Shown: positions 9,615 to 11,434 of the stretch, one piece after another
Layout: every line of letters begins with the position of its first letter
Position numbering within the stretch: the first letter of the stretch is position 1
NCBI GenBank assembly: GCA_944389895.1
Contig: CALXOA010000008.1
Location: 62,001-126,000 of the forward strand
DNA length: 64,000 nucleotides
Reading direction: 5' to 3'
DNA from: an uncultured Victivallis sp.
Lineage (GTDB): Bacteria; Verrucomicrobiota; Lentisphaeria; Victivallales; Victivallaceae
Translations under genes and position numbers: made by a program
The notes under the pieces: generated by a model
Told to the model about the DNA's origin: nothing
Databases searched by the model: none
Seen by the model: the letters and a program-made list of their open reading frames with translations, nothing else

Positions 9615-9735
9615 GCAAAAAATCTCTACTATTTTGGTATTTTTTATGTTTTTTTCCACCTTCGCCGCATGGGAGGTTGACAAAAAGCGTTCCTGCACAC
9701 CACCGGATCCGGCAAAAACAAGGAGAAAAACAGAG

Positions 9736-11160
9736 ATGAATGATGACTATGACTATCTTTTCCGGCGCAGCCATGAGCGTTATCGAGCCAACCGGGAAAT
9801 CTGGGAACGCAGTGCCGCCGCCTATGCCGGAGGGACGGAGTACATTCGTCGGGCACTGATCCGACACGTCTCCGAAATCGAACTGGAATTCGCCGAACGG
9901 CTCGCCCGAGCCTATTACTTCAATTATCCGCGCAAACTCGCCCGACTGATCACCCAGTTCGTGCTCTCCTCCGAGCCGGCGCGCGATGGCGCGGAACCGG
10001 CACTGGTCGAAGATTTTTCCCGTACCGGCCTGCGCGCCAGCGAAGTGATGCGCCAGTTTTCCACGCTGCTCAATGTCTACGGCGGCGCGGCGCTGGCTCT
10101 GGAGATGCCTTTCTTCAAGGGGGAGGCCGATTGCGAACGACGGAAAAACGAACGGCTCCGCCCCGCAGTACGCGCACTCTCTCCACTCGAGATTCCCGAC
10201 TGGGGTTATGGCACCGACGGGGAACTCGACTGGATCGTCTTCGAAGAACGGCAGACGGTCAACCGGGGCCCGTTCCTGCCGGCGCTCCCGGTAGTGCGAC
10301 GACGGCTCTTCACTCGCGAGGAAACGTTATTGTTTGAGCGGAACCGTTCGAACGGCGATGTCGTGCTGCTCAGTCGGGCCCGCCATGGTCTCGGAGTCGT
10401 TCCCGCCGTCTACCTGGTGGAGCCGGATGGTTTCGGCCTCAATTCAAATCACTGGTTCGAAGACGTGGTGCGGATCAGTGATGCGATCCTGAACAACGAA
10501 TCAGAAGCACAGATGAACGTCATCAAACAGATGTTCGGCCTGCTGGTGATTTCAGACAGTTTCGCCCGGGGCGCCCGCTTCTCCGGAACCGGAACCGATG
10601 CCCCGGGGAAGGAGAAATTCAGCCGGATTCTCGCCCGTTCCGCAGCAATCTGGGAGACTCCGGAGGAGCGAGGAACCAGTCGCTACATTTCGCCTTCCGG
10701 CGCCGACACCGCCAGAATCCGTGAAGAGAACGACGCCCTAAAACGCGAACTTTTCGACGTGGTCGGAATGGCGCTGATCACCCCGTGCAGGGAGGCGCAG
10801 ACCGCAGAATCGAAAGCCTGGGACTATCATCAGGTCAAGCAGTTTCTGTCGTGCCGGGCCGATATGCTTGAACAGGCGGAACTCAAATGCTGGCAACTGA
10901 TGCACCGTTTCGACGGTTCGATCCCGGTCCCGTCGATCTCCTACAATCGGGAGTTCGCCGTCGCCGACCTGAAAACCTCGATCGAATCCCTGGCGGAACT
11001 CAAACGATTCTCCGGCGGCTCCGCCTATCGACGCGAAGTGGCCCGCACCGCACTGTTTCTGCTCGAGAAAGTCCGGAAGATCGATCCGGAACGCCGCCGG
11101 GCGATTCTCGACGAAATCGAAAACTGGCAACTCTCACGGCTGGAGACGGAAAATGTTTGA
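9736..11160 (+). CDS. Phage portal-like protein (DUF4055-like), isolated
   Basis: A 474-residue soluble protein that reads like a tailed-phage portal subunit, the dodecameric ring through which DNA enters the capsid. Features seen: an N-terminal helical part with AAYAGGTEYIRRAL and FAERLARAYYFNYPRKLARL, then FVLSSEPARDG; a STLLNVYGGAALALEMPF strand-helix; the RLRPAVRALSPLEIPDWGY segment; VVRRRLFTREETLLFE strands; GVVPAVYLVEP; and the central SNHWFEDVVRISDAILNNES stem helix. It ends with a helical crown-like part (DALKRELFDVVGMALITP, AQTAESKAWDYHQVK). This order matches DUF4055/SPP1-gp6-like portals; the match is from memory of the fold pattern, not from a search. The start ATG 9736 is chosen because AAGGAG lies just upstream (around 9719-9725); the frame is open from 9538. 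It overlaps the next gene by 8 bases. No other phage gene is nearby, and codon use looks like the host's. Confidence 0.65.
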   Translation: MNDDYDYLFRRSHERYRANREIWERSAAAYAGGTEYIRRALIRHVSEIELEFAERLARAYYFNYPRKLARLITQFVLSSEPARDGAEPALVEDFSRTGLRASEVMRQFSTLLNVYGGAALALEMPFFKGEADCERRKNERLRPAVRALSPLEIPDWGYGTDGELDWIVFEERQTVNRGPFLPALPVVRRRLFTREETLLFERNRSNGDVVLLSRARHGLGVVPAVYLVEPDGFGLNSNHWFEDVVRISDAILNNESEAQMNVIKQMFGLLVISDSFARGARFSGTGTDAPGKEKFSRILARSAAIWETPEERGTSRYISPSGADTARIREENDALKRELFDVVGMALITPCREAQTAESKAWDYHQVKQFLSCRADMLEQAELKCWQLMHRFDGSIPVPSISYNREFAVADLKTSIESLAELKRFSGGSAYRREVARTALFLLEKVRKIDPERRRAILDEIENWQLSRLETENV

Positions 11161-11434
11161 ACGGCACTTCAACACACCGGTCACAATCCGCCATACCGAC
11201 GAATCCGGAACTGCCGTCGAACGCCCCGCGCAGGCACTGCTCCTGAGCCGGAACGACCTGGCGGGAGATTGGAACACCACCCCGGAACAGATCGTACTCC
11301 TGATCAGAGCCTCCTTCGAAATCCGGGTCGGCGACCATGTGATCACGCCGACCGGAGAGTATGACATCGGTGAGGTCAGACACTGCCTCCGCTTTGACGG
11401 GCAGGTGGCCGCATATCGCTGCACCACGGTATGA
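11153..11434 (+). CDS. Phage head-closure / head-tail connector-like protein
   Basis: A 93-residue protein starting MFERHFNTPVTIRHTDESG. The second half (IRASFEIRVGDHVITPTGEYDIGEVRHCLRFDG then AYRCTTV) follows the beta-barrel pattern of small phage head-closure/head-tail adaptor proteins, where a GDxI...G..Y.V..V...RD..G...Y.... segment is typical. Such proteins bind under the portal ring. ATG 11153 overlaps the portal-like gene by 8 bases and has GGAG 8 nt upstream, so the two are translationally coupled. The linkage to a portal-like gene is the strongest argument for the call; alone the sequence would be called hypothetical. Confidence 0.5.
   Translation: MFERHFNTPVTIRHTDESGTAVERPAQALLLSRNDLAGDWNTTPEQIVLLIRASFEIRVGDHVITPTGEYDIGEVRHCLRFDGQVAAYRCTTV

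Follow-up and report, generated by a model that had tools for sequence, protein, structure and literature searches.

A portal and head-closure gene pair in Victivallis as a probable island of a chromosome-dispersed, domesticated tailed-phage particle

We analysed a 64,000-nucleotide stretch of DNA (the window) from a 131-contig draft genome of an uncultured Victivallis sp. The genome (G000) belongs to the genus of Victivallis vadensis (here g1) in the family of Victivallis (here f1, phylum Lentisphaerota). The V. vadensis type strain, DSM 14823 (G007), has its portal gene on contig C10 (NZ_QEKH01000010). The original prediction described an overlapping pair of intact genes in the window, encoding a DUF4055-type portal protein of 474 aa and a small head-closure protein. 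Both open reading frames are present and intact, and they overlap by 8 bp, the commonest arrangement among the 26 genomes in which the pair is adjacent (Table 1). A longer portal frame with a TTG start, running from 9538, is unlikely, as the orthologues share the ATG start used here.

Table 1 Features of the gene pair in the window and its partner genes on other contigs of the same genome (G000)
Feature	Position	Strand	Remarks
Promoter-like element GGTTGACAAAAAGCGTTCC	9675-9693	+	upstream of the portal gene; common to other islands of the module
Ribosome-binding site AAGGAG of the portal gene	9720-9725	+	read directly from the sequence
Portal protein gene	9736-11160	+	474 aa, intact; ATG start at 9736, stop codon ending at 11160; phrog_145, fold matches to portals; orthologues in 59 of 72 family genomes
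Head-closure (stopper/neck) protein gene	11153-11434	+	93 aa; fold matches to neck proteins; prophage gene order
Large terminase (TerL)	G000:C90:59240-60490		single copy; profile search
Capsid protein, SU10-type	G000:C79:9435-9977 and G000:C57:2-556		single copy, split by contig ends; profile search
Small terminase (TerS)	G000:C119:81457-81717		

Comparison with PHROG profiles assigned the first gene to phrog_145, annotated as portal protein, over residues 11-466 and hence the full length (E 9.2e-34). The named portals of this type (from SSU5-type phages, a Rhizobium phage and related phages; Pfam DUF4055) are homologous to the window's protein throughout, but they share only about 21-25% identity with it, and its DUF4055 score (15.9 bits) fell below the gathering cut-off of 25. 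A phmmer search of PDB sequences gave nothing useful. The AlphaFold model was mediocre to fair (pLDDT 59); in a fold search against the PDB, its matches at E≤0.001 were portals or portal-vertex entries, the best at 4.5e-10. A structural search without portal similarity would have refuted the prediction; the one made here did find portals, and the predicted portal thus stood, in length and by profile and structural similarity. The nearest phage portals, found among viral contigs, were 46-56% identical to that of the window.

The product of the second gene matched no Pfam or PHROG family. Its predicted model was good (pLDDT 83), and the first 13 Foldseek matches in the PDB were neck, stopper or connector entries, including the connector of SPP1 gp16, PBSX xkdH and the native GTA (gene-transfer agent) particle 6tba. 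These matches were modest, with none at E≤0.001, a best value of 1.4e-3 and a probability of about 1. The protein also aligned with a gene of related prophages that lies between those for the minor head protein and tail completion, and this gene order identifies the head-closure gene by position. Judged by predicted fold and by prophage gene order, the product is a head-closure protein, as had been proposed.

The surroundings of the pair appear to be those of an ordinary chromosome. From their translations, the neighbours look like McsA and McsB genes on one side and a glycosidase and an oligopeptidase gene on the other. On reading the open reading frames at 5-17 kb, we saw no integrase, terminase, capsid, tail or other phage gene around the pair, and the 64-kb window contains no tRNA gene. 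The GC contents of the two genes (0.596 and 0.603) are close to that of the whole window (0.605). The prediction was right that phage genes are missing in the stretch read and that there is no compositional shift.

The pair had also been called an orphan, which holds for the window but not for the genome. Other contigs of G000 carry TerS, TerL, an SU10-type capsid protein, a scaffold protein and a linked protein, which are conserved and are lost together with the pair. The capsid gene has the scaffold gene upstream and a head-completion candidate downstream; it is broken exactly at the end of C79 and the start of C57, and about 14 residues are missing between the two parts. Relatives of the capsid protein in two viral contigs are 57-62% identical. 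An open reading frame downstream of the capsid island in another genome (G002) looked spurious. TerL retains its Walker A motif (GGSRSGKT), Walker B region and the acidic residues of the nuclease. Directly upstream of it lies a gene for a 506-aa protein, here called g51, without a match in PHROG or Pfam. The g51 family (about 490-510 aa) accompanies the module in many genera and adjoins TerL in g1 (L086:10000-11520, on G000:C90, and relatives). Portal, head closure, capsid and both terminase subunits together derive from the virion and packaging genes of a tailed phage, as is expected of a GTA.

Tail genes, which the original prediction had suggested looking for along with terminase and capsid, were not detected in G000. 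Probes made from the tail proteins of sister prophages (A4, A3 and A7) found nothing in this genome; elsewhere their hits were patchy and mostly in other prophage-like regions. Profile comparison paired neither g51 with the prophage protein A4 nor the next gene with A5. A widened tail-tube profile found no match in g1, whereas the same profile found islands in other genera, and across g1 we found no tail tube, tape measure, fibre, lysis or regulator gene. In related genera only, we found tail-tube genes (sometimes in two copies after the capsid gene), an island of head closure, terminator and tube, terminator-tube fusions, chaperone-like genes, and an island of g51, two small genes and a collagen-type tail fibre. 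Among these tail-island parts, g51 alone was detected in g1. The two fusion genes of one genome, G017 (L240:8675-9571 and L241:9158-10054), encode proteins of about 300 aa with tail-terminator-like and tail-tube-like parts, and each stands alone among host genes with the promoter-like motif upstream. With the chaperone-like genes in a tail island comes a 157-aa protein (L151:10902-11375) that has a C-terminus like that of the phage tape-measure protein and may be a tape measure of very small size. Three prophages of Victivallaceae of the siphophage type (G012:C10, G029:C40 and G036:C27) have portals about 50-54% identical to the window's, together with related scaffold, terminase and head-closure genes; they hold all of these in one block with tail genes, unlike the window's genome.

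We located the module on two near-complete genomes. In G026, a 3.88-Mb contig carries g51 at 518011, the capsid gene at 569425, portal at 1857713, TerL at 2242331 and TerS at 3059586. In G017, a single contig of 3.2 Mb, TerL (1603726) and TerS (1604988) are followed by the capsid (1774406) and portal (1785944) genes, the fusion genes lie at 739609 and 1276116, and g51 with the tail fibre starts at 2604868. Set among housekeeping genes, the islands of these genomes are separated by as much as 2.5 Mb, and the dispersal is therefore not an assembly artefact. Each island carries one to a few genes with host genes on both sides, and no integration or replication gene was seen beside the islands in the regions read. 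One genus, g15, has its portal gene in a compact cluster of TerS, portal, scaffold candidate, capsid, head-completion candidate, one further gene and TerL. This cluster (L055, L062, L067 and L068) occupies a conserved site beside gene c9, is without the shared promoter motif and groups with prophage copies in trees; it may be a separate or prophage-derived version.

The dispersal bears on the idea that the parts serve co-resident helper phages or parasitise phages, forming heads that carry a mobile element or hamper related phages. Prophages in the same family and viral contigs with 46-56% identical portals would allow such mixing of parts. Against this, the parts are scattered, the regions read showed no link to an integrase or a replication gene, and many genomes have a single copy and no detected related prophage, which makes this explanation distinctly improbable.

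We then found a promoter-like element, GGTTGACA, at 9675 upstream of the portal gene and in most other islands. The sequence (A/G)GTTGACA precedes most first genes of islands, usually 40-110 bp before the start, and is rare in g15. With the loose pattern [GT]TTGAC[AGT], the motif was present at 28/31 portal, 25/27 scaffold and 18/20 g51 islands, against 41/196 control genes searched with the same pattern; for TerS the count was 7/9. When a matrix trained without the window's genus was applied to about 0.87 million positions of that genus, 16 island sites were among the best 27. The portal site at 9675 had the top score in the window among the matches listed for the matrix trained on other genera, and the two terminator-tube fusion genes left out of training carry the motif as well. 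TTGACA is also the common sigma-70 -35 box, and for this reason the motif is only moderately specific. It resembles a strong -35 box with a barely recognisable -10, a combination that makes an activator or special sigma factor plausible. The islands may be switched on by a common promoter signal.

To follow conservation, we searched 72 genomes of the family (G000-G071). Portal, TerL and capsid were found in about 59 of them. Portal and TerL were jointly absent from 12 genomes, and portal and capsid from 13, with only one or two discordant genomes; the Fisher tests on joint presence and absence ignore phylogeny. The genomes with joint absences belong to several genera; one species of the window's own genus (G005) is among them and is also without g51 and TerS. 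In a class-wide search of 198 genomes, 65 of the 78 genomes of the family had the portal, as did genomes of f2 and few besides. The original prediction would have been refuted by a pair confined to one strain with pseudogenised relatives nearby; instead, the pair is family-wide and mostly intact. Full-length genes were present in 34-38 genomes examined, and some copies elsewhere carry stops (portal of G014 and G062, TerS of G025). Among the pairs listed within the window's genus, dN/dS was 0.02-0.23 for portal, TerL and capsid, indicating purifying selection; values were higher for the small, fast-evolving head-closure gene.

These results, together with the motif, speak to whether the islands are old prophage remnants, broken up by rearrangement, without function and simply not yet lost. 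Islands of one to a few genes, the missing complete tail in the window's genus, the capsid gene cut by an element in V. vadensis and the stops in a few copies would suit such decay. Full-length genes in so many genomes, low dN/dS, joint absence, a common upstream motif and trees that agree with host genera do not, and we regard functionless remnants as unlikely.

In the portal, TerL and capsid trees, most genera with several members were recovered as clades, and distances correlated with those of the housekeeping gene Obg (Mantel correlation 0.63-0.65). This agrees with the co-evolution with the host chromosome expected of a GTA, the exceptions being the TerL of G019 and g15, which groups with prophages. 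The G019 TerL (G019:C32:34841-36094, L254) groups with g15 and not with its portal and capsid neighbours, either because the gene was transferred horizontally or because the contig is a contaminant. These exceptions could be accounted for by prophages acquired recently, several times and independently, that only look scattered in fragmented assemblies, and most of the genomes are drafts. Such acquisitions are already contradicted by the dispersal on the single contig of G017 and the 3.88-Mb contig of G026. They also fit poorly with the host-gene flanks and with the synonymous divergence between G000 and the type strain, which is similar for portal (1.22) and Obg (1.05), and we consider them highly improbable.

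GTAs are domesticated DNA-packaging particles (PMC9662315; PMC11841831). The combination of terminases and head genes with vertical descent, joint absence, a dispersed layout and a common motif fits a particle of this kind. The pair is probably an island of such a particle, derived from a tailed phage, domesticated and with its genes scattered over the chromosome: a GTA-like system of Victivallis and its family. We use the term GTA-like, since formal GTA membership needs proof of particles and transfer. Among the roles first proposed, a GTA with scattered genes agrees with the partners elsewhere in the genome and their joint loss. The conserved parts are head and DNA-packaging genes, which disfavours a contractile device; a tailocin would have tail genes without head and terminase genes. 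A solitary portal-like ring put to another use is disfavoured by the partner genes.

The small terminase offers a clue to what such a particle would package. TerS of the window's genome matches only profile positions 63-144, in a 111-codon open frame that therefore cannot contain the N-terminal helix-turn-helix region. By this match range and frame length, the TerS of g1 is predicted to be truncated, without its N-terminal DNA-recognition domain; several related genera retain the region, and the loss is not universal. In RcGTA, too, the small terminase has no N-terminal DNA-binding domain, and the authors of that study associate this with random packaging (PMC6854486). In g1, the truncation and the dispersal make random packaging of host DNA likely. 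A capsid-derived device with another cargo or role, such as a protein compartment or a head-based signalling or killing particle that has lost DNA transfer, would be consistent with g1 yielding only head and packaging genes and one linked protein. It would leave unexplained why g1 retains TerS as well as a TerL with ATPase and nuclease motifs; a closed portal makes sense for DNA retention, and tail parts are kept in related genera. We therefore judge this device very unlikely.

For the GTA-like particle, we propose the following mechanism. A common regulator or sigma factor would activate the scattered islands through the GGTTGACA element, and the scaffold and SU10-type capsid proteins would build a procapsid on the portal ring. 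TerS without its DNA-recognition domain would bring TerL to host DNA with no choice of site, and the terminase would fill the head through the portal. The head-closure protein would then plug the portal and join a tail, and cells would release particles that carry host DNA and could deliver it.

Known GTAs are usually spread over several loci; some loci hold just one or two genes, and the distances between them reach hundreds of kilobases (PMC11841831). The genes of RcGTA lie at five loci (PMC9662315). Like the Victivallis module, RcGTA of Rhodobacter capsulatus (Rhodogtaviriformidae) combines phage-derived head and packaging genes, vertical inheritance and several loci, and it has the TerS truncation predicted for g1. 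RcGTA retains a main structural gene cluster, whereas the Victivallis module has portal, capsid and TerL on separate islands and an SU10-type capsid. The portal and neck chains of the GTA particle 6tba matched the window's proteins weakly, at the fold level only. BaGTA (Bartonella), VSH-1 (Brachyspira), Dd1, VTA and the proposed FpGTA (Faecalibacterium) resemble the module in their independent phage origins and, commonly, multiple loci; they belong to other hosts. To our knowledge, no GTA has its portal, capsid and terminase genes all on separate islands. FpGTA has been described as a 10.5-kb operon (PMC12946183). Our search found no paper linking GTAs to Lentisphaerota or Victivallis. We lean towards an independently evolved GTA of Victivallaceae, the first in Lentisphaerota, with portal, capsid and terminase in islands of one to few genes, a regulon built on one promoter element, and a gene set that is no longer packaged as a block.

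Few lineages are known to have GTAs, which are difficult to recognise, and a Victivallis GTA would add a phylum. It would also represent a very complete end-state of domestication, in which the capsid operon itself has dissolved into the chromosome, and would give little-studied gut bacteria a way to exchange genes. Related prophages, the compact head cluster of g15 and the repeated, separate joint absences allow tests of how domestication proceeded and of whether selection maintains the module, and the shared promoter element provides a handle on the module's regulator.

Two further observations concern individual lineages. Genus g4 (G011, G028 and G039) differs from the other genera: its partial TerL- and TerS-like matches are numerous and spread over many contigs, either because the assemblies are fragmented or because the genes have expanded. 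The capsid gene of V. vadensis DSM 14823 breaks off at ...NGRGMTI (L090:8909-10866, G007:C31). Next to the break, close to a contig end, lies a serine-recombinase-like gene of 518 aa, and the assembly yielded no 5' part of the capsid gene; the domesticated gene may here serve an integrative element as its insertion site.
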